A DNA stretch of 64,000 nucleotides from Sipunculus nudus (taxonomy: Eukaryota; Annelida; Sipuncula; Golfingiida; Sipunculidae), in the NCBI GenBank assembly GCA_026874595.1, contig CM049321.1, forward strand, positions 6,316,979 to 6,380,978, written 5' to 3'. The notes under the pieces were generated by a model. That model did not search any database. It was not told the DNA's origin and saw nothing but the letters and a program-made list of their open reading frames with translations. Shown here piece by piece: positions 34,641-63,519 of this stretch. Position 1 is the first letter of the stretch, and each line of letters opens with the position of its first letter. A program made the translations under genes and the position numbers.

Positions 34641-35279
34641 TAATATAATGTAATGACCTAAGAAAATTACTGGCCGTTCACTTTTTTTTTATAAATGGCG
34701 CAGACACGGACGTCATTATAGGAGGATGGGGGTCTACTTTTTGACAAGGGGGAGTGGTCTAGGTAATAATCCCCCCCGGCAAACACTATTCAAAGAATAA
34801 GATTTATATTTTGCGTAAGAAATAAAGTTATAATATAAATAAACTATAATAAAGTATGGTTTCATTTATGGACTAATTATCAAATAATTAATATAGGTAT
34901 ATGGAATATTGTTAAGGATTAACCATACACATTAAACCTGATTTTCTAAAACCTTATACCTATTATAACATATTTGAAAAGTAATTAAGTAAATAATATT
35001 TTAAATGTGTCATACAGACGCTGAAAGTTATATATATATAATTTAGAAAATTAATACTCTAGTATATATGTTAAAGATAAAAAATATATCTTGGTATCAT
35101 TTACTGTATTTCAGTAAAGTATATTTTTAAAAACCTTATAATTTCTAATAAAATGTTGCCCTTTGAATGTAAGCAGAAAATGAAAAAAAAAATAAAAATT
35201 GCTCAAGATTATAATTATGTATGTTGAAAACTGAATATTTTTACAGTTGTTTTCTGACTGATGTTTTCTTCTATTGCAG

Positions 35280-35509
35280 AGTGGCCATGTTGTAGTGTCT
35301 GCGGAGACCCTCACTTTGAAACGCCTGATGGTAAGAGATTCAAAGTCAATGATATATGTACGTATGATCTCATTTTAACTGAAGATGGAAGCCTCAATAT
35401 CAGTATGATTACTGTACGACACCAAAGTCAGTATCTCAGCTGGGCCAAGAAAATCATCTTCAGGCAAAGAGGAGGCAAATACCGCCTAGGCCATACATCC
35501 GTCAATGTG
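35280..35509 (+). CDS. vWD gene A exon 8: N-terminal half of second vWD domain
   Basis: Acceptor TTTTCTTCTATTGCAG, 230 nt, donor GTGAGA; phase 1 in, phase 0 out. It opens with EWPCCSVCGDPHFETPDGKR, a canonical vWD start with CGDPH and the PDG loop, followed by TYDLILTEDGSLNISM and RHQSQYLSWAKKI. NIS is a sequon. The minus-strand partner at 62873-63102 has the same length and borders and 65 of 78 identical residues; most differences cluster around the GDPH loop. Confidence 0.9.
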
Positions 35510-35576
35510 GTGAGATATATTTTTATTACGTTTTTAACTTGTTTTTTTTAATCGTTACATATTTGGACTGTTATAT

Positions 35577-35665
35577 GATCGGTTGGTTAATCGGTTGGAT
35601 TGTTACCTGATCGGTTGGTTAATCGGTTGGATTGTTACCTGATCGGTTGATTAATTGGTTTTCTA
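35577..35665 (+). repeat. 32-bp tandem repeat, about 2.7 copies
   Basis: Units start with GATCGGTTGGTTAATCGG at 35577, 35609 and 35641. The third is diverged and partial. Located just after the exon 8 donor. Confidence 0.85.
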
Positions 35666-36027
35666 TCAGAGGCTTTACTTGGAACGTTGTTTAAGTTTCG
35701 TGGATCAAGCTTCTTTTGTTTAAGGGATTCTCTATCAATGTGAAACTTGTCAATATGTTCATCGGAGGGTCAGCCTTTGTTCTCGCAAGCAAATCTCACC
35801 TGTTAGGCAACGGTGGAGTCAGAGATTTTCAACCATACCTTTTCCTGTGCTTGCATAGCACACACCCGTTTCTTTGCATTATCCTTTGGGAGGTATACAA
35901 GCAATCTCTGATTTGATTCAACTGCACGTGTCGAACGGCTTCTGTGGCCGGGGGCGGGATAGGGGGATGGGATGAGGGTGGTTCAAATTTCACCTAAGGC
36001 GTTATGATTTATCACGGTTGGCAATAT

Positions 36028-36220
36028 CCAATGGTGAGCGCTCTGTAGGCTTACTGGGAAGGTCGTGCCCAACAAACTTGCCTCGCTTAAAACCAAGTGC
36101 GGGTCCCCGATTGATATGACCCAATAGTGGGCACGAGAACACCCACAGGGTACGGAGGTGCACTAATCACCGGGCCTGGTAACCACCAGGATATAAAATA
36201 AAAGGAAGCGTGTGACAGAG
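36028..36220 (+). mobile_element. tRNA-SINE, 5'-truncated copy
   Basis: It matches the body of the SINE at 44385-44650: GTGAGCGCTCTG, GGGAAGG(T/C)CGTGCCCAAC, CACCGGGCCT and CCAGGATATA in the same order. The tRNA-like head is missing. In arm B only the last ~40 bp of this copy remain (about 62780-62815), so either arm B lost the rest or boundaries moved. Confidence 0.7.
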
Positions 36221-36825
36221 CAGTGTCAAGTTGTCCCAAATCGGAATGGAATTCTGCAGACTTACGTATACTTATTCAAGTTTGCATAAGAACAATGAAC
36301 ACGACTATCATTTTTTGAAAGAAAAAGAAAAAAAATAAATTAATCCATTTGCGTTATAATAAAGGAAACATGTATCTTTTATTTGGTTTCATAATACAAC
36401 TGTTTTGTGTTATACCTAAATGTTCTAATGTACGAATGATTTGGATTTTATCTTTTTTTCATATGCCAGGGTCAGATGATATGGTACCCTATAAGCAATA
36501 CAAAAACACACACGCACACACACATATTTATATGATATCTGACGGTGGTTACACCCAGCAATTGTGATGGAACTCCTCTGTAACCACGCAGTGTCGGGAA
36601 TGGTGCAAGGGAGCCATTTCCCATACTTTCGCAATATGAGAAATTTGACATTATTTTGCAAAGGGTCAATCACATTGCCATCTTTTTTTAAACTACGCCA
36701 CTGAATGTGTTCTACGAAAAACCAGCCAAGCACCAGCGCCCAAAATCACGCAGCCCTTCCCAAACGCAAAAACAGGTAATATGCCACTATGAATGACCAG
36801 TGTTGTATCACCGGGTATTTATTAC

Positions 36826-37305
36826 GGCTGCGCGATATTATCGATATATCGGGTTATCGCGATACGGTGATTCGCATTTTGAGTATCGCGGTGGAATTTT
36901 TATATATCGATATCTGTCGATGTTTCGATAAACGTGTCTAAAACTGAGTTTCTGTAAAATTATTATATTTCTGTTACAAATATAGAAATCATCATTGATT
37001 GGGACAAATCAGAGGCTACATGTGAAAGGCGTTATCGTGCCTTTGGACAATTAGTAGGGAATGTTCAAGTTGGCCTGATATACCATATCTCTTAGTTCCA
37101 TCTAAGGGAATATACATGTCTGTTCTATGATTTTTGGAAATGCGAGAATATTTCTAGACATTAAAGAAAACTAAGTGCCGAACACGGTCATATTTATTTG
37201 TTTGTCAATTTTATATAATAAACATAGTGCGATATCTTTCACAATAGTATAACACATATCACAAAAACTTGCAATACTAAATTTGTAGGCGATACGCAGC
37301 CTTAA
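36826..37305. mobile_element. hAT-like MITE in arm A
   Basis: The 480-bp unit is flanked by a 10-bp direct repeat TATTTATTAC (36816-36825, 37306-37315). Its ends are inverted: GGCTGCGCGATA on the left and, reversed, GGCTGCGTATCG on the right, resembling GGCTGCACGATA-type hAT ends. The interior is rich in CGATATATCG palindromes. The same unit lies at the mirrored place in arm B (about 61442-62331), so insertion preceded the duplication. Confidence 0.65.
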
Positions 37306-38774
37306 TATTTATTACTCCAAATAAACTGCAGTTTTTTTTACTTATGAGGGCCACACGCCCTGAATATTGATGAATGACTCGAGTCCTGTTGGGACTAAAG
37401 TCCGGACTATAGTCCACTTTTTAAAAAGTCGGACTTAAGGACTCGAGAAATTAAGCCGAGATCATCTAGCTTACAGTAAAAAAAGACAAATGGGAAACAT
37501 TATATAACGATTGTATACATTGTGGACTATAACAAGAATATTATGACAGGTAAGACCATAAACAAATCAAGTTTTATCTCCTTGTCAGAAGCTAAACCTT
37601 CCTGATTTACGGGCTGGCAACCGCTCGCCAATGTAGGGCTTTTCCCACAGGTTAAAGAAAACAACACAGAAATTTAAGGCATAAATACCAGAATGGCCTA
37701 AATATCTCTCTCGGACATGGATATACTGCCAGTCTATTATAGTTAAATGTGGTAAACAGGGAGCCTAGAACAAATCGCGGCGGTAACTGAGTTTCACCAT
37801 ATGTCGATTTAATGTTTAGCCCCTGACCACGTCTAAATGACCTAACCAAATACAGGCCAGTGGCCCTCGTCTAAATCGTTCAATTACCAGCGGAAGAGAG
37901 GGCATATCTTTGCGCCCATCTCTCAGGGCCAGCCTAATTTACAATAAGGTGGCCTATTAATGGGTCATTCAAAATATAGGTAAGAGGGGTGGCTGGTATA
38001 GGCCTTATGTCTTACAGAGTCGCGTCTAGTCAGATCACCTCAGCTATTAAATGTTTGACCTGTCTGGTCTGGTCGCAACGAAATGCCGGCCTTAACACGT
38101 TACTACTGAAGAAACTGGCACAAATTAGCCCTAGAAGTCCAGACGGATATGGGGGAACCTGAACGAAACAGTGTTTTTTTTTTAATGTTGAACATCTGAC
38201 AGTTCACGCAAACGTCAGCACGTGAAAAGGTTAATCATAATTGGAGTAAATGTGTGTGTACCGTTTATTCATAAAACATGAAGAAGTTCATTTGTAATGA
38301 AATGACCAGATATACTGTTTTCTCATTAATGGAGTATCTGGCAAATGCATAAAAATACAGATTTACCTGCACTTTCATTGAATTCTGCATATCAATATAA
38401 TCATGCTCATTTTTTTTTTTCATTTTAAAGACAGGACATGATACCCACTATATATATATACCCGCACTTTCAACTATCAGGACATTCAAAAGATAATGTT
38501 ACCACGTGATATTAAACTTTGTGAAGTTTTACTAAAATTATTGTCCGTTCATTTTTTTTATGTATGGACTATATAGTATATTTTATGCCTGGCTGTACCA
38601 TATTTCACGTACATTGTCAAAAGCTGCGTTTTTACATCTTTTCTGTCTCGTAACAAAAAAAATGTTACCACATGTGTTGATTATTTTAATCGTCGGATGA
38701 TGTTACAAAACGGTTGAATGAATATGATAAAAAATTAATATACTCAGCAAGAATAAAAAAAAAAATATTGCTAC

Positions 38775-39212
38775 GTGCGTTTGCCAACAGGCGACTTTGA
38801 AAAAAGATTTATGGGTCAACAGAGTATACCAACAGACATACTCCGGCTTGCCAAGTCGGTTTATAGGGCCCTATCTCCTGAAAGGGATTTGGGGTTTAGG
38901 AGCTTAAGACATCTACTTTCTTATTACCACAGTGCCAGGGCCTATTTAATACAACGAACAACAATCATGGTCTCCATGATGTATGTTGATTTAATGAAAT
39001 CTTTCAGGGAAAGGGCACTTAAACGTAGTGTCGTCATTGTCCTCTATGACATCACGACTCGCACTCCAAATATGGCAATATCGTCATGTGGTACGTTCCT
39101 GTGTAAACCAACATGCAATAGACCCTGTTTAAACCCTGAAGCGCATTCCGAAGTTGTTTACGCCGGGATTGCCCCTATAAATTACTCAATTGTTCCTTGT
39201 ATCACTGCCTAG
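38775..39212 (+). other. Unrecognised open frame, 145 codons, in arm A intron 8
   Basis: The longest open frame outside the transposons and vWD exons in this arm. It has no signal peptide, membrane span or motif I recognise. I did not find a matching sequence in the mirrored part of arm B (about 60060-60500), which suggests an arm-A-specific insert or a chance frame. Confidence 0.2.
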
Positions 39213-39679
39213 CTATCCTTGAAATTTCATTAAACTCCGCTGAGAATTTTTTTTTTGTATAATTGTGCTATCAGACAAAAATTCACGGGCAAACAGACAC
39301 ACAGACAACCACCCGCTGCCAAAAATAAATAAAAAAATAACCCCCGCCGCTTGGTATGGCGGAGGTAAAATCAGTTGGTTAAATCAACTGACTCGGGCAC
39401 ACTTGTTTTACGCCGTTCCTGAATCAGTATTCTTACTGTTTTTAGATCAGATATTAAGCATTGCCATAAGGGTATCGAAATCTAGCCATTCAAAAATTAT
39501 TGTAAGTGCATCCCGTAATTCAATGTCAGTAATGATTTTTTTTAACCATAATGCGTGTTGTTAAATAGACGCCAGAGCGGCTCGATGAGGAAAGGTATCT
39601 GAAAGTGTATCTGGGCGTGATAACTGATTAATTCATTAGAACTTTAATACATGCTCATGGGTATTTCTTTTATTTACAG

Positions 39680-39873
39680 GAGAATACTCTTGTTGCACTC
39701 CCCTACGAGGATCCAGAGTTTGATTGCTACATAGATGACAAAGACGTGCTTTGCTGCGATTCCCTGCAAGAACCTATGAGAATTTGCTCGCCTAAACCAT
39801 TTTGTTACGACATTTGCTTTGATCATCAATTTGACGCAATAGTGTCTGGCTTGTGTGGAAACTGCAATGGCGT
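39680..39873 (+). CDS. vWD gene A exon 9: C-terminal half of second vWD domain
   Basis: Acceptor CTTTTATTTACAG, 194 nt, donor GTAAGT; phase 0 in, phase 2 out. It encodes ENTLVALPYEDPEFDCY, VLCCDSLQEPMRICSPKP, FCYDICFDHQFD and SGLCGNCNG. The arrangement mirrors exon 5 of the first domain, but with many more cysteines (about nine in 64 residues). The partner exon at 59210-59403 is of equal length. Confidence 0.9.
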
Positions 39874-40316
39874 GTAAGTGCATACTTAGCATCTAAAAGG
39901 ATACCAACGTATTCCTGTTATTTTTTTTAATCAGTAATATTTAAGGTTTGGCTCAAACAAGATCAAAGCAGTTATGAAGAACAAACATACGTTAAATGGC
40001 TTTGCACTATGAGTCCCTTAAGAAAGTCCAAAGTTTTTGACCTAAATGTTAATGTTGAAATAAACTCATCAATCTATAAAGCATCTCTACGCCGCTGAAG
40101 AACGGCTGAACTGAGATATCAGACCGAAACGGATGGCAGTTAGGGAAGGAAAAATGGAGTAGCTGAGTATAACTCAAACATAGTTATGATATGAGTGCCC
40201 GTGAGGGTAAACATTGAACTAAAATTACTAGCACAAAAACAGAAATTTTGTTGCTATTTCTTTGAGCATTGAATCTGTTATTGTATTGCTTGGCCATAAT
40301 GTCCATTTGCATACAT

Positions 40317-40375
<59 letters not shown>

Positions 40376-40527
40376 ATTATTATTATTATACAAAACCTGG
40401 TGTTTCATCAAGGTCCATAATGTGTCCAAAGATTTCATTATCAATAGGCGCTGTAGTCTGCGCTATGTCCGCTCAAGCTAGGGAATTCTGGCTTTCATGG
40501 CTTATATTTGACTTTGATGCATATTAG
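39874..40527 (+). other. Intron 9 of vWD gene A
   Basis: 654 bp. A (TA)n tract at 40319-40371 is followed by (TTA)n to about 40389; the mirrored intron of arm B has the matching (TA)n at 58741-58800 and (TAA)n near 58035. Confidence 0.65.
40319..40371. repeat. (TA)n microsatellite shared with arm B
   Basis: Mirrors 58741-58800 in the other arm, so the tract predates the duplication. Confidence 0.9.
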
Positions 40528-40620
40528 GGAAAACGACGACCTTATAACCAGGGAGGGTGAGGATGTGAACCACGACCCTGACGGGCTGGAAAAATTTATA
40601 AACAGCTGGAAAGTAGGAGA
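40528..40620 (+). CDS. vWD gene A exon 10: tail of second vWD domain
   Basis: Acceptor GATGCATATTAG, 93 nt, donor GTAAGT; phase 2 in and out. It encodes ENDDLITREGEDVNHDPDG and FINSWKV, the closing DDL...DG...SW module, paralogous to exon 6. The arm B partner (57800-57889) is shorter by one codon. Confidence 0.85.
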
Positions 40621-40977
40621 GTAAGTAAATATTAATCCTTTTAAAACGCCCAGTCTCATCTGAGCCACATCATCTCCGGTTTCATCAAAATTCAAATAAG
40701 TGTTGTATTTTGGGCACGAGGTCAGGTAAATACGTCAAAAGTTTCTATATCCCTATATCAATAAAAACTTTGTTCACATTTTAACATTTAAAGACACGCT
40801 ATTTTTAGCAGCCAGTAAGATTAAGTTATTTTTAGTGGACTAATATTGAACTACATGCTAATATTTCAGCAATTTTAAATGTGTTTTTCCTCTTTCATGT
40901 TTCTATCTACCCTGAAGCTAACATTTAAAATTGTATTCAATAATAATTGAAAAGGTCATTTTCAGCATGACAGATAT

Positions 40978-42656
40978 ACAGGAGAGGAAAACAGAAAAAC
41001 TAGACGACCATGGGTCGAACGCTTGCCGGAAATCGGAAGTGAAACACAGACGGACAGACAGAACATATTGTCGGTTTTCTATTAATGAAATGACTCTCAG
41101 GGACATTGCTGAGAATATGTGGCCCGTAGAATGACATATGAGACAAAAGAACAGGCAAGCAGACAAAGCTGACAACAAAAGACGAACAGACAGACATACT
41201 GACTTTGTGAGACAAGATTGACACCAGATGACATAACCTGGTGATTAAGAAGATTCAAAGGAAGAAAATGAGTTATAATTTATGTAATTTAGATTTATAA
41301 TTTTGGAGGTATGGCGAATTAATGATATACTAGAGAGGCTCGACTGTAGCGCCCTCTAGCAGACATATTCCGAAGACGACAAATGCGTTTCGTATTATTA
41401 GTGTATACCATGAGACGTCCCAGTTTCAAAAGGATTCCGTCAAAGCTGTGGCCTGTAGAATGCTATATGTAAGGCGTACGAACCAGCAAGCAGGCGACTT
41501 TGAGGATAACGGACAAACAGATGGACACACTGACAAAGTGACAGAAGATTGAAACCAGATGCCTTAATCAGGTTATTGAGAAGACTCAAAGGAAGAAAAT
41601 AAGCTATAGTTTATGTAACTGAGGCTTTGGGTGTAGAGATATGGCCAATACAATGGTATGTGTGTGAGGGTCGTGTGCAGCGCCCACTAGTGGCCATATC
41701 CGGAAAATGAAAAATTTATTTCTAGATATTAGTGTAAGACATAAGATGTAATAGTTTCAAAAGGATTCCGTCAAAACTGTGGCCTACAGAATACTATATG
41801 TGAGACGCAAGAGCCAACAAGCAGGCGAATTTGAGGACAACTGACAAACAGACGAAAACACTGACAAAGTGTCACAAAATTGTGACCAGATGACTACACT
41901 AGGTTATGGAGAAAACTCAGAGGAAGAAAATAAGCTATAGTTTATGTAATTGAGGCTTATAATTTTGGAGATATGGCCAAAATATGATATGTTCGGGAGG
42001 TTCGCATCCAGCCCCCCCTAGTGGCCCTATTCAAAAAATGAAAAAAAAAAACGATTTCGAGATCCTAGTGTAATACTTATAATATGTCAGTTTCAGAAAG
42101 ATTCCTGCAATAATGTGGCCTTTGGCGCAAGATGAATGAAATCTCGAAATATCTCTATTCACGAGATATTTTACGAGATACTGCAATACTTGTTATAAAA
42201 TCTTGTAGTACTAGTTGAATGCTACCTGATGCAAAAAAACTAGATCACACTAGCTTTAAAACTGACAAAGTTAGAAATATAAGACCCCTTATATTTGAAT
42301 ATCATGATTTTCCCCAAAATTTGTAACCATGGTTACGGCAAATTTGAGTCAGCTACACACCAGATGACAGGCCTTTGAATGACGATTAAAATGAGCTATT
42401 GTTGAAGTAGATACGACTAATAGTCACAAAGATATGAAGAAAAAACCGTTTTCAGAATTTTTGACGACCTTGACCTTTGATCTATTTTAACCAAAAACAA
42501 TAGGGCACCTAGAAATTTAATTTCCCATCATCTCTAAAAGTTTTAAGGTGATTGTGGCAAAATTGTGGCCAGGAGAGTGCAGACAAACAAACAGACAGAC
42601 AAACATACATACGCAAATGAGCAATATGCTTGCCGAAATCTTTGATTCCGGCAAGC
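40978..42656 (+). repeat. Arm-A-specific insertion with ~330-bp tandem repeats
   Basis: Arm B runs straight from the sequence matching about 40977 to that matching about 42657, so these ~1.68 kb are present only in arm A. Inside, TTTCAAAAGGATTCCGTCAA recurs at 41424 and 41755, with a diverged copy at 42090, giving a period of 331-335 bp. Each unit also carries a GCGCC(C/T)..CTAG(T/C)GGC-like block and runs of (GACA)n-type sequence. The right end is an 8-bp hairpin, GCTTGCCG (42628-42635) with CGGCAAGC (42649-42656). GCTTGCCGG also occurs near the left end. No coding sequence. Confidence 0.8.
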
Positions 42657-42898
42657 AAAAAACGCTTTTCAGATAGTGTCATATAATTAAATATTTGTCA
42701 ACTATAAAGATGGCGTTCTGATATTGGGCGCATTAAAAAATTAAGTTTTTCGTGTGCCCCATCAACACAGATCACTCCCAATATATATCCTCATCTCGTG
42801 CACGATATCCGAGCCTGCACGTCTGAAAGTAGAGAGGGTAATAGCACACGGTCTAGGTAGATAAAAGCAACTATACTAGACAAATATCTCCCTTGCAG

Positions 42899-43004
42899 GA
42901 TTTTGAAGCCTCAACGTTATTTGACTTTGACTAATTACATGAATCAGGAGGCTAAAATACACAGCAAACAAGCCTTTGTTTCACAATCAAGGAACCGAGC
43001 ATAA
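42899..43004 (+). CDS. Candidate terminal exon (exon 11) of vWD gene A
   Basis: Acceptor CAAATATCTCCCTTGCAG, then 106 nt in phase 2 reading EILKPQRYLTLTNYMNQEAK and ending in TAA at 43002-43004. The tail would be 35 residues with no cysteine. The arm B counterpart (57048-57153) has the same acceptor position, length and stop and differs by a single base (Tyr/His). The phase fit to exon 10 in both arms supports it, but no transcript evidence exists and I see no clear polyadenylation signal close by. Confidence 0.35.
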
Positions 43005-44384
43005 TTGCAAAATTAAAATTGATATTCTCTGTCATTCACAGCTGCCCTGCATAGTGATGTGACTGTCACGTAACAAAGGAAGACTTCTACCTATCAATTG
43101 CTACACCGTTGGGGATGTGTTTTCAGGAGCTTGGGCATCACTCGGGAAATAACAATCAAATCTTGATCACAGATCACGGTTCAGTATCAGGTTCAGAAGA
43201 GAATTAGGATGAAAGACTGTATCATGGCTGTGATGTTGAAAATTATTTAATTATATGGATATATAAATATATATGTAATCACCCAATTACATCATAACGT
43301 TTAAATTACTGATTAAAAAATGGCAATTTCCACGCACTGGGTCAGTCTGTCCTGCTCTGTTTCTAAAAATTCACTTGCACCAGGTGAAGTCTAGATAAAA
43401 ATAAAACACGCCGGTACATCCAATAAAGTCGTCTTTTGTCTTCAGTGTGATTTATGACTTTTCTTAATGTATCTGTCTGTGCCTTTGAGTGACCATTATT
43501 TGAATGTGGTGTAATATTTGAGTGTTTTGTAATGCAAAATTCAGAAGTAGAAAGCACTCACAGGGTGCATACCTCCGCCGTCACTTGGAGCGCTTCATGC
43601 CCCTCTCAAAATTTAATCGACCCACATCCCGACATTCAACAATAATATACTGAAACTCTTTGGAAAATTCGATCATATTGATATTAGCATTTATAAACAT
43701 AAATGACACTTTTCGTATCAATAGAAATTTTAATATATTTTAACACGTTATTTTCCTTTTTAATGTTTCTAAAAGTTATCGGGGCCAAATGTTTTTGCAG
43801 TATATGAAGTTGAAAATGGATACTTGTGATTGGTTGATTTTAACGGGGGGGGGGGGGGTAAAATTTATCTTATTAAAAGACAAAATGGCGATGGCATTTG
43901 TGAGGCGTGGAGCCAGTCCACACATAAATGGATTCTGCGTCAACAATGTATGATCGGCATGAAAATGCCCATATAAGAAGAGATACTGTATATTTATACA
44001 CAAAACTATATGTGCTATTTACCTCCTATAATCTAAACCATCAGTATTGCTAACAGGATTCTGAACAAAAATATGTACTATTTGCTACTCTCAACAGTTT
44101 TAAAATAACAAAGTTTAACTGTGTTTGTGATGCAATTAATGAACAAAAGATATTCCCCCTAAAATTCCTACAATTCTATCACATCCTATTTAATTTTCTC
44201 AAAAGGGCGACTGAAGAGATGACCTTGATGCTAGCAACTAACCTTACCATTGGCTAAATATATAGCCTCATGATAACTGTATTCGACCAGAATTTTTCAA
44301 TTTGCATTTTCAGCAGTAGGGACGCCAGAAGGTTTTAATGAAGTCATTTTCACAGCATCTAACTTGTACGACGTACCAGTTTCT
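43005..44384. other. Non-coding inner part of arm A
   Basis: 1.4 kb, AT-rich, mirrored by about 55620-57040 in arm B. A G run at 43846-43859 corresponds to a C run at 56161-56172 there. A more diverged copy of the stretch 42780-43700 occurs at 50420-51700 in direct orientation. Confidence 0.6.
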
Positions 44385-44650
44385 GTGGCTCAGGGGTAGA
44401 GCGCAGGATTCAAAGCCGGGATATCGCGAGTTCGAATCTCAGCCGGTGGGCGCCAACCCAGGGTGAGCGCTCTGCAGGGCTAATGGGAAGGCCGTGCCCA
44501 ACGGCCGTGTTCCACTCACAATCGAGTGCACCTTTCGGGGCTCCTCAGTGGTATGACCAAGCAATGGGAACGATTATACACCCAGGGCCCGCAGGTGCAG
44601 TAGTCACCGGGCCTAGTTAACGCCAGGATATAGATTGAGAGGAAGCGTAC
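44385..44650 (+). mobile_element. tRNA-derived SINE in arm A
   Basis: The head looks like a tRNA: A box TGGCTCAGGGGTAG (44386-44399) and B box GAGTTCGAATCTC (44428-44440). It continues into a body with GTGAGCGCTCTG, GTGCCCAACGGCCGTG and CACCGGGCCT. It ends next to a (TA)n tract at 44657-44708. The inverted copy lies at about 55300-55580. Too long, and with a tail too unlike a cloverleaf, for a functional tRNA gene. Confidence 0.8.
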
Positions 44651-44656
44651 GGATGT

Positions 44657-44673
44657 ATATATATATATGTATA

Positions 44674-44708
<35 letters not shown>
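44657..44708. repeat. (TA)n microsatellite behind the SINE
   Basis: Imperfect TA/TG repeats, mirrored at 55204-55265 in arm B. Confidence 0.85.
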
Positions 44709-44713
<5 letters not shown>

Positions 44714-47084: not shown

Positions 47085-47087
<3 letters not shown>

Positions 47088-47138: not shown

Positions 47139-47142
<4 letters not shown>

Positions 47143-52155: not shown

Positions 52156-52237
<82 letters not shown>

Positions 52238-52920: not shown

Positions 52921-53740
52921 TATTAGTTTATTAATAGTGTAAAACGTATATAAGTTTAGTTTAATTATGATTTATAAATTATTGTCATCCTTTGATGTTA
53001 TTTTTACATAAAAGATTTCTTGCCAAACCTTGCAAAAAGTATACATACATTGGAAATAAAGTTTAGTTTGAAGTAACATTGCTTAAAACAATAGAAGGAT
53101 TGGTTTTTATTCTTCATTTTACTTACAGGTAATTAGATGTGGATTTCAGACTGCAGCTCGCGATCAAATTATAATAATTTTACGTAAAGCCAAATTATAT
53201 GTGATACATTTGTATCCACTGAAATGTGTTATTGTTTAGCTATTAATTTTGACCATGAGCACATTCTCTTATATGCAATATGTCTCGTAATACAATGGGT
53301 CAAGAGATGAGAAATTTCCCCTGGGATATTTAAAGAAAAAATACTTATATTGCATTTCCCCAAGGAAAAAGAAAGAAAACATGTTAATCATGTAATTTCT
53401 GTATTGAAAAAGTGCATATACTGGTGAATACTTTTGATCTACTTCTAATATTTTTCTCAAATAGGAAACGCTATTTTTTATATTCAATATTAATTTCAAG
53501 CAAACTATTCAATAATCATTAACATAATACTTGCAGATATTATTATAGGTACCACATTGTATATCACTGAATTTAAAGACAGCAATATTTTTAATATTGA
53601 TTTATATGTCTAATATTGCATTAATACAATTAAGCATTCTTGTATTTATACCATTAATCATTCTCGGAATGGTTTTAGTTATGATATTCTATTATTAATA
53701 TGATATCAAATATATCGGAATGCTGAGAAGATCATATGTC
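52921..53740 (-). repeat. Right arm of inner inverted repeat
   Basis: Reverse-complement partner of 49308-50082 with moderate divergence and small indels. The match fades past about 53740, at the mirror of TCTCAACATTCTGAG. Confidence 0.85.
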
Positions 53741-54760
53741 AGTAAAATCATGCAAAAATTAATGAATTGATTTTTACCGAACAACAGTGCAGGCTTGTTT
53801 ACTAAGGGAAGGCATATGGTTTACCCAGTGTCATCGATAATTTTCCTATGTGGAGCACCGTTGATAATGCAGTATCCCTTGAGTTTGTTATTTTTACAAC
53901 TATTCCACGTCCAGTGATAATGTAACAGAGAACTATGCAGCGGTATATTAACATATTATGGGACCATTTCATTTGAATTAAATATAATAAGTGGTGCTCC
54001 ATATAAAGAACAAAATACATACCCACAGGGTACATAAATATATTTAAGATATGTAGATAATGATGTAATAGTATTTTATTAAAGTAGGTGCAGGGTATGG
54101 ACAGTGATATATGATGTTATATGGCACGCTCATTTCTGTTTATGTTTGACGTTCTTATGGATCAGAAAAAAAATATACTTACACATAAATATACAGGTTA
54201 TTTGAACTCTTTATTATTATACATCCTATGTCTGATATGGAATAAGTATTATGATATCAGATGACAACATTAGTTGACAGCGTACACAATAAAAACTACA
54301 GTCCTGTACGATTACTGAACATAGCAAACAAATCATACAGAACATTATTAATTATTTTTATCTAAAACTGCAAATTGTGCAAGAGCAACACTCTACTCCA
54401 TTACTGTACACCTATTTGTATACGTACACCAGTTCAAGCCATACTATATGGTAAACACTCTTCGTGTATAATAAGGACTTACTGTTCACCAACTTCTGGA
54501 AGTATCGAAGATATATGTTTCCTTTATATAGTATTCGTGTATGTTATCATATTTCAATTTATGTATTATCCTATAATGTTCAGTGTTCTGCTGTTACTTT
54601 TGCCATCATTATACATTATTGCTACTCACAGGTTTAAAATCAATATCATTCAGACTCAGTTTTTTTTTCTTACCAGCCATCTATATCTATAGTTAGATCA
54701 TTTAAAACTAAAACCAATAACAACAGGTACAGAGGGACACTTTTAGAATTTTTAACTTTT
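53741..54760. other. Non-coding stretch right of the inner inverted repeat
   Basis: About 1 kb without a recognised gene. An open frame at 54375-54692 is rich in Ile, Tyr, Phe and Leu as expected from AT-rich non-coding DNA. Confidence 0.55.
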
Positions 54761-54794
54761 GAGGAGTCTTTAAAAGGTTTAAAATCATCCACTT

Positions 54795-55104
54795 TTAATA
54801 TGGCAGACATATGTTATATTGTCTCCTTGAATGTTAGAGGTCTTGGCTGGCCCATGAAAAGAAGAGAATATTTAATTGGTTAAATAAAAACATGTTTAAT
54901 GTTATTTCTTTAAGTAAACACATAGCAATGTAGACTCTGATAATAGATGGAAATCAGAATTGGGTTATCAAATTCATTTTATTCATAGCAACCCCAGTCA
55001 AGAGGGGAATGCATATCGATAAAAAATAAAGCAGGTATCCAGATAAAGAATACCATATCAACTGAACATGGAAGATTTATGAGTAAATACAAAAATAAAT
55101 ATAC
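54795..55104 (+). mobile_element. LINE endonuclease (APE-type) N-terminal remnant
   Basis: From about 54799 the frame reads MADICYIVSLNVRGLG with a following KRREY, the invariant start of the apurinic endonuclease-like domain of L1-type LINEs (SLNVRGL..P.KR). It is followed after stops by W..ELG-like and SRG-type pieces. The relic ends where arm B begins (about 55105), as if truncated at the duplication breakpoint. Its orientation is opposite to the RT remnants at 47800-49260. Confidence 0.6.
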
Positions 55105-55200
55105 ATCGTGATGTCAACTTCGTACAAGTTTTTTTTTTTTTTTTTAACTTTTTTAATAATTTTTTTTTGGGTGGAGGTAACCGCCTCTTTAATACTTACT

Positions 55201-55203
<3 letters not shown>

Positions 55204-55265
<62 letters not shown>
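55204..55265. repeat. (TA)n microsatellite shared with arm A
   Basis: Mirror of 44657-44708, again at the SINE tail. Confidence 0.9.
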
Positions 55266-55268
<3 letters not shown>

Positions 55269-55299
55269 CATTCCGGTTTAGGACTACGTAAAAAGGGAG

Positions 55300-55580
55300 G
55301 TATAATACGCTTCCTCTCAATTTATGTCCTGGTGTTAACAAGGCCGGGTGACTACTGCACCTGCGGGCCCTGGGTGTGTTATCGTCCCCATTGCTTGGTC
55401 AGACCACTAAGGAACCCGGGAAGGTGCACTCGATTTTGAATTGAACACGGCCGTTGGGCACGCCCTTCCCAGAAAGCCTGCAGAGCGCTCACCCAGGGTG
55501 GGCGCCGACCGGCTTAGATTCCAATTCACGAACTACCGGCTTGTGCTTCTTCCTGCACTCTACCCCTGAGCCACAGAAAC
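55300..55580 (-). mobile_element. tRNA-derived SINE in arm B
   Basis: Minus-strand copy of the SINE at 44385-44650. The A box (CTACCCCTGAGCCACA on the plus strand, 55560-55575) is intact, whereas the B-box region near 55515-55535 is mutated. The body motifs GTGCAGTAGTCACC and GCCCAACGGCCGTG are preserved. Confidence 0.75.
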
Positions 55581-57047
55581 TGGTACGTCGTACAAGTCAG
55601 ATGCTATGACAATGACTTTCTGGCGTCCTTACTGATGAAAATGCAAGTTGAAAAATTCTGGTCGAATACAGTTATCATGAGGCTATATATTTGGCAAATA
55701 GTAAGGTTTGTTTCAAGGATCTAGGTCATCTCTTTGGCCGCCCTTTTGAGAAAATTAAAAAGAATGTATTAGAATTGTAGAAACTGTAGGGGAAACATCT
55801 TTATTCATTAATTTCATCACCAACACATATAAACTTTTGTGTTGAGAGTGGCAAATAGTACATATATTTGTTCAGAACGCTGTTAGTAATACTGATGGTT
55901 TAGATTATAGGAGATAATTAGCACATACACTTACTTTTGTGTCTAAATATACTGTGTCTCTTCTTATATATCGGCAATTTCATGCCGATCATATATTGTT
56001 GACGCCAGAATCCCTTTATGTGTGGACTGGCTCCACGCCTCACAAATGCCAGCGCCATTTTGTCTTTTAATTAGATAAATATTTAATTATGAATTTCTAT
56101 GAATATTAAGAATATTAGGAAAACATAGTGGTCAATATTTTTTAAATTGTGTAAATTTTACCCCCCCCCCCCAGTTAAAATCAACCAATCACAAGTATTC
56201 ATTTTCAACTTCATATACTGCAAAACTTTTGGCCCCGATAATATCACAAGACATGAAATGAAGATAACGTGTTAAAATATATATTAATTTCTATTGATAA
56301 GAAAAGTGTCATTTATGTTAATAAATGATTATATCGATAGCATCGAATTGACCAATGAGTTTCAGTGCATTATTGAATGTCGGGATGTGGGTTGATTATA
56401 TTTTGAGAGGGGCTTGAAGCGCTATAAGTGTCGGCGAAGGTATGCACCCTGTAAGTGCTTTCTACTTCTGAATTGTGCATAACAAAACGCTCAAATATCA
56501 CACCACATTCAAATAAATGACTGGTCACACAAAGGCACAAACAGATACATGGAAAAAGTCATATATCACACTGAAGACAAAAGAAGACTTTTTTTCGGAT
56601 GTACGAGCGTGCTTTATTTTTATCTAGACTTCACCTGGTGCAAGTGAATTTGAGAAACAGAGCAAGACAGACTGACCCAGTGCATGGAAATTGCCATTTA
56701 TGTAATCATTAATTTAAAAATGATGATGTTATTGGGTGATTAATTAAATATATTCATATATTCATATATCCATATAATTAAATAATATTTAACATCACAG
56801 CCAGGTACAGTCTTTGATCCTAATTGTCTTTAAATAATGCAAAGATGTAAGTCTTCTCAATCTGATACTGAACCGTAATCTGATATCAAGATTTGATTGT
56901 AATTTCTCGAGTGATGCCCAATCTCATGAAAACACATCTCCAATGGTGTAGCAAGTGATAGGTAGAAGTCTTCCCATGTCACATGACAGTCACCTCACTA
57001 TGCAGGGCAGCTGTGAATGACAGAGAATATCAATTTTAATCTTGCAA
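55581..57047. other. Non-coding inner part of arm B
   Basis: Mirror of 43005-44384. A C run at 56161-56172. No independent coding signal. Confidence 0.6.
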
Positions 57048-57153
57048 TTATGCTCGGTTCCTTGATTGTGAAACAAAGGCTTGTTTGCTGTGTATTTTAG
57101 CCTCCTGATTCATGTAATTAGTCAAAGTCAAATGACGTTGAGGCTTCAAAATC
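57048..57153 (-). CDS. Candidate terminal exon of vWD gene B
   Basis: On the minus strand an acceptor (CATCCTTCCAG) is followed by 106 nt ending in TAA (57048-57050). The predicted tail, EILKPQRHLTLTNYMNQEAK onward, differs from arm A by one residue. The phase fits the exon at 57800-57889. Confidence 0.35.
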
Positions 57154-57799
57154 CTGGAAGGATGATATTTGTCTGGTATAGTTGCTTTTATCTACATAGA
57201 CCGTGTGCTATTACACTCTCTACTTCCAGATGTGCAGGCTCGGAAATCGTGCTCGAGATGAGGGTATATATTTTGGGGTGATAGGTGTGGAAGGGGCGTC
57301 TATTTCATGAAAAACTTAAATTTTTAAAGCGCCCAATACCAGAACTCCATTTTTATAGTTGACAAATATTTAATTACATGACACCATCTGAAAAGCGTTT
57401 TTTTTGTATATCTGTATATCTGTAATGCTGAAAAATGACAATTTAAATTATTATTGAATACAATTTAAAATTTTAGCTTTAGGGTAGATAGAAACATTCA
57501 AGAGGAAAAACACACTAAAAATTGTTGAAATATTAGCATGTAGTTCAATATTAGTTCACTAAAAAATAACTTATACTGGCTGCTTCAAATATCGTATCTG
57601 TAATTGTTAAATGTTAATTGGGCCATCATATGGGTTTAAAATAAAGTTTTTATTGATATAGGGATAAAGAGGCTTTTGACAAAAAAAAAGAAACCTTAAC
57701 TTGTGTCCAAAATACAACACTTATTTGAGTTTTGAAGAAACCGGAGAAGATGTGCCCCAGATGAGACTGGGCGTTTTAAAAGGATTAATATTTACTTAC

Positions 57800-57889
57800 T
57801 CTACTTTCCAGCTGTTTATGAATTTTTCCAACCCGTCAGGGTCGACGTTCACATCCTCACCCTCCCTGGTTATAAGGTCGTCGGTTTCG
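57800..57889 (-). CDS. vWD gene B: tail of vWD domain
   Basis: Minus-strand exon between acceptor TGATGCATTTTAG and donor GTAAGT, 90 nt. It encodes NETDDLITREGEDVNVDPDG and FINSWKV, one codon shorter than arm A exon 10 through loss of a GGA near the donor. Phases in and out are unchanged, so the reading frame is kept. Confidence 0.85.
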
Positions 57890-58334
57890 CTAAAATGCAT
57901 CAAAATCAAATATAAGCCATAATAGCCAGATTCCCTTTGCTTGAGCGGACAGGGCGCAGACTACAGCGCCTATTGATGATGAAAAACTTATGATATTTAT
58001 TAATGGACTATGATTAAGGACCTGGTTTTGTATAATAATAATAATAATAAAAGTAATAATAATTACAATATATTCAATACATCAAAGTGAAAGTGCCCTA
58101 CCGTGCGAGGAGTATTAATAATATTATACTATGTGTATACTTTGCTTGATTTCATGATGTACTACAGTACTTGTCGTGGGTTCAGCTTGCCAGCCGGCCC
58201 ACTCCTAAAATGATAATGTGTGAACTAAGTCCGTTTAAAGTAGTTGCATAAATTACATTTTTTTTTATTTAACATGGAGTGTAATTTACCAGGCCACATT
58301 CACTAGACAAGACAATTAACACATCGAAACATAT

Positions 58335-58550
58335 ATAGAACTGGCAGAGAACAAATTTAAAACACGGTTCTACGGACACACCAGCAGCTTTCAAAATGAA
58401 CGAGAAATAGAGAAACAGCAGCACGTTATGCCACTATGTATGACTGACAGAGAACACATTTAAAACATGGTTCTACGGACACACCAGCAGCTTTAAAAAC
58501 GAACGAGAAATAGAGAAACAGCAGCACGTTAAGCCAGTATGTATGGACCC
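58335..58550. repeat. ~107-bp tandem duplication in arm B intron
   Basis: GGTTCTACGGACACACCAGC followed by AACGAGAAATAGAGAAACAG occurs twice, about 107 bp apart. Not seen in arm A. Confidence 0.7.
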
Positions 58551-58737
58551 TGAAAGACGAAAGGACACCATATGCCATCAGTTGGAAATATTCGCGAAAC
58601 GCAGGGCATATTTAACCACAACAAAGATATGTAATTTTTATGCAACACGGAGAAATATTTCATCAAATACAGGCCGGAACAGAGGACATTAAATAATATA
58701 AGCGGACTGACCTAGGTCATGAGGTAATTAAGTTGGA

Positions 58738-58740
<3 letters not shown>

Positions 58741-58800
<60 letters not shown>
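58741..58800. repeat. (TA)n microsatellite shared with arm A
   Basis: About 30 TA units, mirror of 40319-40371. Confidence 0.9.
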
Positions 58801-58803
<3 letters not shown>

Positions 58804-59209
58804 GCCCACAGAAATGTAAAAAGACAATATTTATATTTTTGCCAGCAATATCAGTTCAACGTTTACCCTCTCGGGCACACAAATCATAACTATATTTGAG
58901 TTTCTTATACTCAAATACTCAAGTATTGCTTCTCTTATTGCGAACCGTTTCGGTCTGATATGTCAGTTCAAAAGCCAGGAGATGCTTTTTAGATTGATGA
59001 GTTCATTTCAACATTAATATTTAAGTCAAACCTTTTAAAAGGTGGACTTTCTTATGGGAGTCAGAGTGCAAAACTATAAAACGTATATTTGTTCTTCTAA
59101 ACTTATTTGCTCTTGTTTGAGCCAAACCTGAAATATGGCTGATTAAAGAAAATAACTGGAATACTCAGCAATAGGTTAGTATCCTTTTAGATGTTAAGTG
59201 TGCGCTTAC

Positions 59210-59403
59210 TTGCCGTTGCAGTTTCCACACAAGCCAGACACTATTCCGTCGAATTGGTGGTCAAAGCAAATGTCGTAACAAAATGGTTTAGGCGAGCAAA
59301 TTCTCATAGGTTCTTGCAGGGAATCGCAGCAAAGCACGTCATCGTTATTTATGTAGCAATCAAACTGTGGATCCTCGAAGGGGAGTGACACACGAGAATT
59401 CTT
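59210..59403 (-). CDS. vWD gene B: C-terminal half of vWD domain
   Basis: Minus-strand exon of 194 nt, acceptor CTTTTATTTACAG, donor GTAAGC. It encodes KNSRVSLPFEDPQFDCY, VLCCDSLQEPMRICSPKP and SGLCGNCNG. The last ~40 residues are nearly identical to arm A exon 9, but 9 of the first 24 differ. All cysteines are conserved, so the fold should be intact. Confidence 0.9.
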
Positions 59404-59787
59404 CTGTAAATAAAAGAAATACCATGTGCATGCATATTTCTAAAGAAATAATCATTGGTATATATTGAAATGCGAATAGATCTTAACCATTAAACTTGTT
59501 CACTCGAGAGACGGTTACGGCTTAGGTAATCACGCTTTTTGGTTATTTAACATACATGGGGTAAGATCAATTAAACTAATGCACAATGACAACAGTTTAT
59601 CGGGTCATAAGAGACCTGACCTAGATACACTTTCAGATACCTTTCTTCATTGAGCCGCCCTGGCGTCTGTTTGACTGCACGCATTCTGGTTGAACTCATT
59701 AATGACAATGAATTACGGGATACACTTACAATGAATTATTTGACTAACCAGATTTTGATACCCTTATGGCAATGCTAAATATCTGAT

Positions 59788-60041
59788 CTGGAAATAGTAA
59801 CAGCTGTGTTTCATTAACGGCGTAAAACAAGAGTACGCGAGTCAGTTGATTTTACCAAAATCCTTGTTTATTACCTCCGCCAAGGAAAACGGCGGGGAAT
59901 TATGTTTTTTTTTTCTGGAAATAGTAACAGCTGTGTTTCATTTACGGCGTAAAACAAGTGTACGCGAGTCAGTTGATTTTACCAAAATCCTTGTTCATTA
60001 CCTCCGCCAAGGAAAGCGGCGGGGAATTATGTTTTTTTTTG
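59788..60041. repeat. 127-bp tandem duplication in arm B
   Basis: The unit beginning CTGGAAATAGTAACAGCTGT occurs at 59788 and 59915 with few differences. Each contains CTCCGCCAAGG...CGGCGGGGAATTATG. Arm A has a single diverged counterpart near 39330-39420. Confidence 0.85.
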
Positions 60042-61441
60042 TCTTTTGGTAGCCGGGTGTTTCCTGCCTGCCAGTTTGTCTGTCAATATTTTTGTTATAT
60101 TAGGGGACAGACGTTCTTTCATTTAATAATAATTCTGATAAAGTGCTACATATATAGATACAGTGTTAAAGTGCAGCTCTTTTATTTTAAAGTTGACATA
60201 AATACAAGATAAACAGAGCAAAATAAGGTAATATAAATATGTCTCGGTTTTAATCCAAACATCAACCATCAACATAATTTAAATTTCTAAAGTTAGAGTT
60301 AAATACAGTTTAAAGATAGTAATATCATTCTTCATTGTATATATTTGTTATATTAGTCAGGTTTAAATGCCTTTTCGGGTGTCTGAACAAGATCATAAAA
60401 TCCAGGGTCGACACCAGTTTAAGTCGTTTTCTTTTATTCCTGCCAGTGTCAGATAAAATCTTGTCCAGTTAAGGCGCGTCGTTCAGAAGCAGAGTCGGCA
60501 ACTAATAACAGCTACGTCTCTGACCACATGAGTACCTTCTGGGCCATAATCATAGGATGCAGAGAGAAAAAAATATTACATTACATTAGCTCTGTGCGTG
60601 TATTATATATGTATAGATCTAAATAGCTAGTGTCTCAAGTGCAATACCAGTATAAGATCAATATGATCCATGTTTTCTCTCCTTATAGAATATATTATGT
60701 TTATCAAATGATATTGACAAATATTTTTTAGACTAAAATTACTGTATATCAAACAAAAATTATTTAGCGTTTGGATGGCGAAAATTGGAAGGGCGTGGTA
60801 TAGATATATACATGTATACTGATAAATAAAATGACATGTGATAATAACTTTGCTTTCATGTGAAACAAACTTGCTTCCATTTTGTTCATTTGAATGAATA
60901 TGTGTATGCACCCAAGTTGTCGTCAGTCTGCAGGGGCCTACCTACATCAGAGACCGAGTGCAAGTCCTTGTCCGGGCAACTCCAGTCTAAGTCAAATTTC
61001 GAGTCCAACTGTGCCTTCTTTTAGTCCGAGGCAATTGAAACCAGAATTCATGACCAACTCCAATAAAAACAATCTTATTAAATAAATTATAAAAATGATG
61101 TTTCAGATAATCATGCTAAATTGTTTAGTTTAGAAGGGACCTATGCTTTACTTTTCAGTTAGGTTTAGCTCCAGATGAGATGATAAAACTTGATTTCTTT
61201 ATGGTCTTGTTTGTTAAAAATTTTCTAGTAAATAATAGTCCACATTGTATACAATCGTTATATGATTTTTTACCTATTCGTCTTTTCTACTAGACGGCTG
61301 ATGAACTAGGCTTGATCTTAAAAAGTGGACTATAGTCCGGACTTTAGTCCGAGTCCGGTCTCGAGTCATTCACCAATGTTTAGGATGTGTGGCCCTCATG
61401 AGATAAATAACCTTGAGTTTTATCTGGAGTAAAAAAATACT

Positions 61442-62331
61442 AGGGCTTGGTATCGTCTACGTTTTTTTATTGCAATATATAGCGATATGTGTTAGCGTAT
61501 TGCGAAACATATCGCGATATATTTGTATTAAATATATTTTTTCTTTGTCTGTATTCGGCACTTCTTTTGCTTTATTGTCTAGAAATATTCTCCCTTTTCA
61601 AAATACCACAGAACAAACATATATATTCCCTAAGACGGATCTTACGCTCCCGAGGCAGCAAAAATCTTGCGCTTCTAAAGAAGCTACTGATTCTCCGGTT
61701 GCCTGCTTTGAACGTTTTTGATGCACTTAAGCAGCACCAGGCGGTGGGCCTGTCGGCTGAAAAAATGCTGATGTGACTAGCAGCCAACCAAATACTAGTC
61801 AACACACTCGACAGGCATCAGGCTCCGCCCAGAAACCACGTGTAGGGCCATTCTCTCTTAGCCTGTGGCCTGTTCAAACGGTTGCCGGGGCGATCAACTG
61901 TCCCTCAAAACAAAATGAACAACGTTGGCTGTGTGTATTCCCCGCTTGGCAAGTAAACCGTTTTGTCTTCCAGGAAAGGGTCTCATCTGACCAAAATACA
62001 GTGCTCCCCTCTGTTGTAGCGAATCAGGATACGAGGTAAAACAAACAGCGCTTACGATATAGGTAGTAGGCCTATAGGAAAAGCGCTGGGTAAAGAGCGT
62101 AGACGGACCTATCAGAAGTGGTATTTTAGGCCAACTTAAACATTTCCTACTAAAACGTTCAAAGACACTGTAACCCTTTTACCTTTAGCCTCCTTTTTAT
62201 TCCAATCCACTATGATTTCTAAATTTGCAACAGAAATATGATAATTCTACAGAAACTCAGTTTAAGGCACGTTTAATAAAATATCGAAAGATATCAAACT
62301 TTAAACGATATATCGTTGATATCGCTCCGGC
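61442..62331. mobile_element. hAT-like MITE in arm B (longer copy)
   Basis: Ends AGGGCTTGGTATCG (left) and, reversed, GCCGGAGCGATA (right) correspond to the arm A ends, with CGATATATCG-type palindromes inside both. About 480 bp between roughly 61634 and 62110 have no counterpart in arm A; this is either a deletion there or an insertion here. The extra stretch is richer in G+C than its surroundings. Confidence 0.55.
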
Positions 62332-62872
62332 TTAATAAATACCCTGTGATACAACACTTGCTATTCATATTGGCATATTTCCCGTTTTTTGCGTTTGCGA
62401 AGAGCTGCGTGATTTCGGCCGATAGATGCTTGAATGGCTTTCGCAGGCAACATTATGTGGCTTAGTTTCAGAAATATGTCAGATAATGTTAAATTCCTCA
62501 TATTGCAAAAGTGTGGGAAATGGCCCCTTTGCCCAATTTTTGGTTAAAGAGGAGATCAATCACAACTGCTGAGTGTACCCACCGTCAGTTATTACAGATA
62601 CATGATTGCTGGATTATAAAGCAAATGGACACATTAAGATATCTTTTTTTTTCTTTTTAATTTTGTTTTTGTTGAAGGGAGTCGCCGTTATTTGGTTTAT
62701 GCAAGCTTGAATTCGTATATATGTAAATCTGCAGAATATCATTCCGGTTTGCATTACTTGACAAGGCGGTATCACACGCTTCTAATTATATAAATCCGGG
62801 TGTTAATCCAACCGATTTCCAAACCTTGTAACGAGTAATCCGAGTTAAAAACATAATAAAAGTAATTCTCAC

Positions 62873-63102
62873 CGCATTGACGGATGAATGGCCTAGGCGG
62901 TATTTGCCTCCCTTTTGCCTGAAGATGATTTTCTTCGCCCAGCTGAGATACTCGCTTTGGTGTCGTACGGTAATCATACTGATATTGAGGCTTCCATTTT
63001 CAGTTAGAATCAGATCATACGTACATGTATCATTCACACTGAAGCTGTTACCATCCGGCATGATAACGTGGGGGTCTCCGCAGACCCTACAACATGGCCA
63101 CT
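62873..63102 (-). CDS. vWD gene B: N-terminal half of vWD domain
   Basis: Minus-strand exon of 230 nt with acceptor TTCCTCTATTGCAG and donor GTGAGA. It encodes EWPCCRVCGDPHVIMPDGNS, TYDLILTENGSLNISM and RHQSEYLSWAKKI. CGDPH, PDG and all cysteines are kept. Any exons for a signal peptide or first vWD domain would lie right of the window, since homology to arm A stops near 63488. The gene may therefore be full-length elsewhere or a partial duplicate. Confidence 0.9.
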
Positions 63103-63324
63103 CTGCAATAGAGGAAAACATCAGTCATAAATCAACGGAACAAATATTCGATTTTTAACATACATAATCATAATCATGAATTATTTTATTTTCATTATCT
63201 GCTTACATTCAAAGGGCAACATTTTATTAGCGGTTTTTAAAAATATACTTTACTGAAATACAGTAAATGATACCATGATATATATTATCTCTTTAACAGA
63301 TATACTAGAGTATCAATTTTCTAG

Positions 63325-63325
<1 letters not shown>

Positions 63326-63368
<43 letters not shown>
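63326..63368. repeat. (TA)n microsatellite
   Basis: About 21 TA units near the outer edge of arm B. Arm A has only a short TATATATATATA here (35030-35040), so the tract expanded in B or shrank in A. Confidence 0.9.
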
Positions 63369-63371
<3 letters not shown>

Positions 63372-63519
63372 CTTTCTATCGTCTGAATGACATATTTCAA
63401 ATAATATCTTTTAATCACATTTCAAATCTGTTATGATAAGTATAGTTCTGTGGAAAATAAGGTTTAATGTATTTGGTTAATTCTAAACCTGACTTGGATA
63501 AATTATTTCATAGTACACT

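Follow-up and report, generated by a model that had tools for sequence, protein, structure and literature searches.

The 64,000-nucleotide stretch of the Sipunculus nudus genome analysed here (contig C16, GenBank CM049321.1, positions 6,316,979–6,380,978; hereafter, the window) contains two convergent genes, A on the plus strand and B on the minus strand, each with two three-exon cassettes encoding VWD domains, which face each other from the arms of a large inverted duplication. We propose, with a probability of about 80%, that the A/B pair is a fold-back inverted duplication formed where an array of convergent VWD gene pairs ends. The two arms, the loop between them, the junction at base level and the unrearranged order of the same segments in two sister pairs are all directly observed. 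A first-pass annotation of the window, made from the sequence only, had described a convergent pair of VWD genes carried by an inverted segmental duplication, and this reading is supported; the event is not an isolated one, since A/B is one pair of an array. The assembly comprises 1.43 Gb in 153 contigs. The analysis was extended by flanks of 60 kb to the left and 100 kb to the right of the window, 224 kb in total, in which not a single N is present; coordinates are given as window positions, and those that are negative or greater than 64,000 lie in the flanks.

The proposed fold-back junction and its unrearranged counterparts

The arrangement was best understood by comparison with the neighbouring gene pair C/D. 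In that pair, a segment that we call X (−38,095 to −36,371) runs straight into a second segment, Y (−36,371 to −32,970), which is followed by the minus-strand gene D. The X segment of the A/B pair is 98.0% identical to that of C/D over 1,717 bases, and the match ends at 50,076, corresponding to −36,371 in C/D. From 50,078 the sequence matches the far end of Y, reversed, and continues through Y until the border with X is reached; the base in between, 50,077, matches neither side of the junction. To the right of the loop, the intact X|Y border is found as its reverse complement, leading into a reversed copy of X. The fold-back junction can thus be placed at 50,076–50,077, where a comparison with the C/D parent revealed no clear shared sequence. 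The unpaired loop measures 2.85 kb (50,077–52,923), is 87.8% identical to the C/D copy over 2,757 bases and lies in the opposite orientation in the two neighbouring gene pairs. It is bordered by the innermost parts of the arms, at 49,325–50,076 on the plus strand and 52,924–53,699 on the minus strand, which pair with each other at 89% gap-free identity.

The same X–Y order as in C/D was recognised, from the positions of the matches, in pair 4 of the array (C16:6,206,926–6,215,513), where 6,206,926–6,212,090 matches in forward orientation and is followed by 6,211,393–6,215,513, corresponding to the reverse of 50.1–53.6 kb. The A/B locus therefore displays the mirror arms, the single junction and the unpaired loop that define a fold-back, and the parental order can be recovered elsewhere, read directly in C/D and from match positions in pair 4. 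Because these two pairs share the unrearranged order, the arrangement of A/B would most simply be the derived form.

The region between the arms, previously taken for a 10.3-kb spacer, is composite. It consists of the 0.75 and 0.78 kb of innermost arm, the 2.85-kb loop, about 4.5 kb on the A side and about 1.4 kb on the B side. The A-side stretch, which lies beside the innermost arm at 44.8–49.3 kb, is present in pair 4 and has no match in B; at its place B carries about 1.4 kb of other sequence with no match in A.

Extent and identity of the arms

A BLASTN comparison of 33.5–47 kb with the reverse complement of 53.5–64 kb gave 12 matches, ten of which form a single collinear chain from 34,911/63,488 to 44,793/55,104, the remaining two being a dispersed repeat (36,033 vs. 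55,493) and a match to a tandem copy that overlaps another match. When these regions were compared in direct orientation, there were no matches. The inverted match is therefore real, and its reported ends, 34.91 and 63.49 kb, are those of the chain; they are not, however, the ends of the duplication. Beyond an unmatched stretch left of 34,911 (1.6 kb in A and 1.0 kb in B), the arms resume matching at 33,319/64,510, just outside the window on the B side, and continue from 33,319 to 15,001 against 64,510 to 83,803 at 77–91% identity in BLAST pieces longer than 36 bp, a range from which one off-chain repeat match of 72.5% was excluded. With their flanks, the arms are collinear, though matched in pieces, over 8,852–50,076 on the left (plus strand) and 89,463–52,924 on the right (minus strand, of which 52,924–64,000 falls in the window), and scattered matches extend farther out, to −24,746/103,981. 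The collinear span measures 41 kb in the left arm and 36.5 kb in the right arm, and includes intergenic DNA and repeats.

Over all BLAST matches between −25 and 46 kb, the gap-free identity of the arms is 90.9% (32,822 aligned bases, including a few off-chain repeat matches), while the chain at 34,911–44,793 gives 85.5% over 5,464 aligned bases. The identity is not evenly distributed: it is 90–93% in the outer part, from −25 to 33.4 kb, and further in it falls to 82.3% (34.9–37.7 kb), 86.9% (39.2–41.0 kb) and 90.4% (42.6–44.8 kb), so that the gap-free divergence ranges from 7 to 18%. The arms thus show neither the uniform divergence expected of a single event nor the near-identity throughout expected of a gene-converted palindrome. 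Gene conversion between the arms, which the first-pass annotation had considered to be favoured by such repeats, is possible, as the patchy identity (82–93%) is compatible with it; it is nevertheless unproven, and the arms have not been homogenised. The longest identical run of the chain covers 92 aligned bases with no differences (42,919–43,010) and could represent a coding end or a conserved 3′ element. Part of this run is also kept in a diverged third copy at 50,965–51,702.

The arms had further been said to match across a short interspersed nuclear element (SINE), a miniature inverted-repeat transposable element (MITE) and microsatellites. Both arms do carry a SINE-like repeat (44,444–44,648 on the plus strand in A, with its counterpart at 55,307–55,493 on the minus strand in B and a third copy at 36,015–36,211) and TA microsatellites, but a shared MITE was not confirmed. 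Nor is the match complete across repeats: arm A contains, at 41,000–42,653 (given as 41.0–42.65 kb in the comparison), an interspersed repeat of about 1.65 kb with 331-bp tandem units, which is absent from arm B and from unit 4, the plus-strand copy of the array that has an empty site at this position; copies up to 94% alike occur on many contigs. Larger one-sided insertions are found in the outer parts. Arm A has a 17.6-kb insertion (−8,807 to 8,852) where B has 34 bp, and a further one of 11.4 kb (−22.6 to −11.1 kb), while arm B has about 10 kb of extra sequence at 90.9–101.0 kb. Within the 17.6-kb insertion there is a long terminal repeat (LTR) element whose 734-bp ends are 99.6% alike. This LTR retrotransposon, at −2210 to 4460, has long minus-strand frames that appear gag-pol-like by eye, and it looks young. 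An older retroelement fragment at 12.8–14.9 kb is common to both arms (84.3–86.9 kb in B) and therefore predates the inverted duplication.

The array of related VWD genes

A and B close an array of about 15 related gene bodies extending over about 640 kb, whose orientations nearly alternate (+ − − + − + − + − + − + − + −), the last six bodies being pair 4, C/D and A/B. Opposite-facing neighbours account for 13 of the 14 adjacencies. Four plus-strand bodies have, 5–10 kb upstream, an additional partial exon of the first cassette and an additional exon 1 of the second, which were merged with them for this count; if these exons are counted separately, the figure is 13 of 18. In the rest of the genome, VWD neighbours within 200 kb face opposite ways in 13 cases and the same way in 24 (Fisher p = 0.0003 against 13:1); with matches merged within 20 kb the counts are 13 and 13 (p = 0.013), and within 30 kb they are 13 and 10 (p = 0.027). 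These counts are based on profile matches starting at positions 1–3 and read by hand, from the 150 of 284 candidates that were scored. The same set yielded at least 125 VWD matches in the whole genome, many of them clustered on large contigs, which points to a broad VWD gene expansion beyond the array.

Searches of the whole genome with the second cassette of A returned at least 91 matches (150 of 160 candidates scored) and with the first cassette 79 (128 of 128 scored). Among the matches listed for the second cassette, those above 70% over at least 40 residues all fall within C16:5.78–6.38 Mb; the first cassette has additional relatives at 70–74%, located on C16 at 2.69, 3.64, 6.54 and 6.56 Mb and on C9 at 62.6 Mb.

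Four plus-strand bodies of the array recur at spacings of 81.2, 85.4 and 83.4 kb, and their second-cassette exon-2 regions are, in the aligned parts, 97.6–98.7% identical to one another and 95.0–95.2% identical to A. The minus-strand partners of the first three are genes of the C type, spaced by 81.1 and 84.4 kb and 97.1–98.0% alike at exon 2; another minus-strand gene of this type, the fourth, is located 107.9 kb farther left. Facing the fourth plus body there is a different, partial gene, with 51–70% identity in the second cassette. Therefore, the repetition involves both members in three of the pairs, while the fourth pair has only its plus-strand half in common with them.

All six exons were matched in 9 of the 15 bodies, without implying that each of these is intact, and one or more are missing in the other six. 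Gene D is broken by stops and a frame change. The A-type exon 1 of the second cassette was not found in the four plus-strand copies: unit 4, read over 6,193,000–6,205,068, has 40 bp in place of 34,698–35,868 of A, unit 2 has the same deletion junction and unit 3 a larger deletion. In units 2 and 3 the match to A ends at 39,948, ahead of exon 3, and unit 1 is probably similar to them, judging from its cassette matches and exon-2 identities. Being common to several units, the deletion therefore preceded the amplification at least in part. Apart from A itself, no copy of the A type was found to have all six exons.

Proposed origin and alternative explanations

The fold-back would have started from a plus-strand gene located to the left of X|Y and facing a minus-strand gene. 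Through a break or a template switch, X could then have become connected, at its right end, with the far end of Y on an inverted copy, giving X, Y reversed, X reversed and, next, the inverted plus-strand gene with its upstream flank, that is, gene B; the original minus-strand partner would have been lost from the locus. Later changes may have made the arms unequal, through insertions in one arm and the absence from B of the approximately 4.5 kb beside the innermost arm, and the greater divergence of the second-VWD region, compared with the outer arms, may be due to gene conversion or to exchange with array copies. Head-to-tail duplication of units of about 81–85 kb, each holding a convergent pair, could account for the growth of some of the remaining array.

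The flank left of 27.5 kb bears on the source of gene B. It is present in A and in B and missing from the four array plus-strand copies, whose matches start at 27,535–27,537 of A; elsewhere, among the listed matches longer than 150 bases, the region 8.8–20 kb is matched at only 63–80%. Since this outer flank is common to A and B alone, gene B was most likely derived from the A locus.

On the other hand, several observations do not fit easily with this origin. When 18 windows of 400 bases were compared, A was closer to unit 4 than to B in 17, the exception being 31.3–31.7 kb, which holds the first-cassette exon 2. The identity of A to unit 4 and to B is 95.3% and 91.8%, respectively, in the first-cassette region, and 96.7% and 82–87% in the second-cassette region; at exon 2 of the second cassette, A shows 95.0–95.2% identity to all four array copies and 81.0% to B. 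Taken at face value, these distances make the split between A and B older than that between A and the array, despite the flank found only in A and B and despite the fold-back, and would require either that A and the array exchanged sequence once the fold-back had formed, or that the fold-back came from a different donor. Moreover, given the uneven identity of the arms, one duplication at one time does not explain everything: array copies may have overwritten the second-cassette region of A, the outer arm of B may have been renewed from A, or the B stretch may have evolved faster. A three-way alignment had given only 79.6% between A and B in the second-VWD region; this value was discarded as too low, an insert of about 0.7 kb in B having been forced into the alignment, and 86.9% (39.2–41 kb) was preferred; two chi-square values derived from the same alignment were set aside as well. 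Finally, the whole-genome DNA searches scored 38 of 4,328, 39 of 15,896, 39 of 1,791 and 38 of 2,629 candidates and arm B itself was not among the matches listed, so that absence elsewhere in the genome is not proven by them.

The patchy identity of the arms, the greater closeness of A to the array copies than to B and the alternation of orientation across the whole array would also be compatible with two convergent genes duplicated independently and made alike by gene conversion, with no mirror duplication. We consider this unlikely, as the collinear stretches, 41 kb in the left arm and 36.5 kb in the right arm, take in intergenic DNA and repeats, and there is a single, base-precise junction where the innermost arm ends, with a common mirror boundary at the loop. 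A simple inversion of the 2.85-kb Y segment between pre-existing inverted repeats would account for its opposite orientation in A/B and in the two sister pairs and for the inverted repeats at 49.3–50.08 and 52.92–53.70 kb that flank it. However, only a single copy of the flanking repeat was seen in the sister pairs, and in A/B the right copy is followed by 1.4 kb and then by the left arm in mirror image, an arrangement that inversion of Y alone would not produce; this makes the explanation very improbable. The inverted joining of two haplotypes, or a chimeric fold-back read, is a further alternative: long-read assemblies often contain fold-back read artefacts and haplotype joins, and the near-identical array units (97.6–98.7%) could in part be assembly duplicates. 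Artefactual palindromes are expected to be near-identical, whereas the divergence of 7–18% between the arms, together with the one-sided insertions (the 1.65-kb repeat with its empty site in unit 4 and the 17.6-kb insertion with its LTR element), makes a misjoin of two haplotypes unlikely. The lack of any N in the 224 kb also argues against an artefact, to which we give hardly any credit.

Starting from the fold-back origin of A/B, it could be speculated that the VWD family grows as facing pairs: an ancestral fold-back would create a convergent pair, tandem duplication would then multiply this pair together with its already broken partner, and further fold-backs at the edge of the array would replace partners, while the broken mirror copies that are retained might act as donors for conversion or, by read-through, as a source of hairpin or antisense RNA against the working copy. 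We regard this extended scheme as rather doubtful.

The facing genes A and B

The exons of gene A, all on the plus strand, are located at 28,815–29,047, 31,403–31,617 and 32,264–32,362 for the first VWD cassette and at 35,280–35,509, 39,680–39,873 and 40,528–40,620 for the second, with the same phases in both; both translated cassettes match Pfam VWD. In gene B, on the minus strand, the second cassette occupies 62,873–63,102, 59,210–59,403 and 57,800–57,889, and the three exons of the first lie outside the window, at 69,079–65,447. The first-pass annotation reported open exons of equal length with correct splice sites. All exons of the second cassettes are indeed open with AG/GT borders, and the first two are equal (230/230 and 194/194 bp); the third differs by one codon (93 bp in A and 90 bp in B, where the donor sets the end at 57,800). 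The suggestion that A and B might be gene halves is not needed, as each gene has its own upstream cassette (28.8–32.4 kb in A and 69.1–65.4 kb in B). Tentative last exons, whose phase fits, were placed at 42,899–43,004 in A, where the frame is open in B too and no equivalent was found in gene C, and at 57,048–57,153 in B. If they hold, the 3′ ends of the two genes are about 14 kb apart, and overlap of the transcripts is therefore not required.

The second cassettes of A and B match Pfam VWD with E-values of 6.6e-14 and 1.8e-14. The PF00094 scores, 52.9 and 54.8 bits for these and 52.0 bits for the first cassette of A, are well above the cut-off of 22.9 and cover nearly the full length of the profile. 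Among proteins of solved structure, the closest in sequence are the Fc fragment of IgG binding protein (FCGBP; 2.4e-28 with the second cassette and 1.9e-11 with the first) and von Willebrand factor (VWF); a weak match of the second cassette to a VWD-containing luciferase (24ne, 3.5e-4) was also obtained. Arm A has 358 plus-strand frames of at least 30 amino acids, 130 of which are intact in B, and 93 of these 130 were scanned, those omitted being mostly the shortest. VWD was found in three of the 93 and three retroelement families once each, with ten other families matched only at E 0.006–0.05; C8, TIL or any other accompanying Pfam domain was not detected in these 93 frames, though short exons could escape. 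The C8 and TIL domains that follow VWD in the D assembly of VWF and mucins are thus not seen among the frames scanned. A scan of the arms by codon position gave too few differences to decide on further exons. As a cassette ends in phase 2 and the next starts in phase 1, a linker exon is demanded between them; the A/B/C comparison gave nothing above the intron control.

The two domains differ in their substitutions. The first VWD shows 12 synonymous and 4 non-synonymous codon changes between A and B in 180 codons, with non-synonymous (dN) and synonymous (dS) rates of 0.012 and 0.121, and the second 15 and 25 in 169 codons, with dN 0.076 and dS 0.185 (Fisher p = 0.017, with 56 changed codons in all). 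The first domain looks constrained and the second looser, or diversifying. From the domain and the cysteines, the product is probably a secreted, cysteine-rich protein with two VWD domains; no signal peptide exon was found. Candidate roles include mucus, adhesion, egg coat and defence.

As for other features, the reverse transcriptase and RNase H matches of the frame scan are probably located in the retroelement fragment at 12.8–14.9 kb, and interspersed repeats with copies on many contigs were noted at 24.2–25.6 and 46.0–46.7 kb. No Rfam family at gathering score and no tRNA were found in the window. In the assembly as a whole, nine bacterial-looking COX1 genes with nearly equal scores were present on eight contigs (among C60–C89), and the same search gave one more on a small contig and one nuclear fragment. 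The 80 best GTDB matches of the bacterial-looking genes are at most 58% identical, which suggests a co-assembled, poorly known bacterium, perhaps in several strains.

Comparison with known systems

Known kinds of rearrangement include inverted segmental duplications, fold-backs and amplified pairs of inverted genes. The special value of the A/B locus is that the derived join lies near two parental copies and that one partner in the amplified unit is already broken. The breakpoint is unusually well preserved: with the join, the loop and two copies in parental order within about 165 kb, an old inverted duplication is legible at single-base level and can be compared with about 15 related gene bodies. 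The locus also illustrates that what appears in a window as a mirror pair may belong to a far larger alternating array, most of it out of view; this bears on gene counts and on assembly checks.

The VWD domain relates the A/B genes to gel-forming mucins, VWF and FCGBP, from which they differ by the lack of C8, TIL or other accompanying Pfam domains in the 93 frames scanned. In primate Y-chromosome palindromes, large gene-bearing inverted repeats are kept near-identical by gene conversion; A and B likewise lie on both arms of a large inverted repeat, but their arms are not near-identical. In fold-back inversions, or short-loop inverted duplications, a sequence is joined to an inverted copy of itself; owing to a slight asymmetry a loop remains unpaired, and the join shows little homology. 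All these traits are found in A/B, which differs in being old, in lying in an assembled chromosome and in having the parental order kept alongside. A further parallel is offered by the human AMY1 cluster, for which part of one account describes an inverted middle copy, haplotypes with tandem and inverted repeats, and three reference copies more than 99.9% identical (PMC4498156). To that extent the two loci are alike, with gene repeats of tens of kb and some copies inverted; unlike the AMY1 cluster so described, the arms here are 82–93% identical, the orientation almost always alternates and four plus-strand members are broken.

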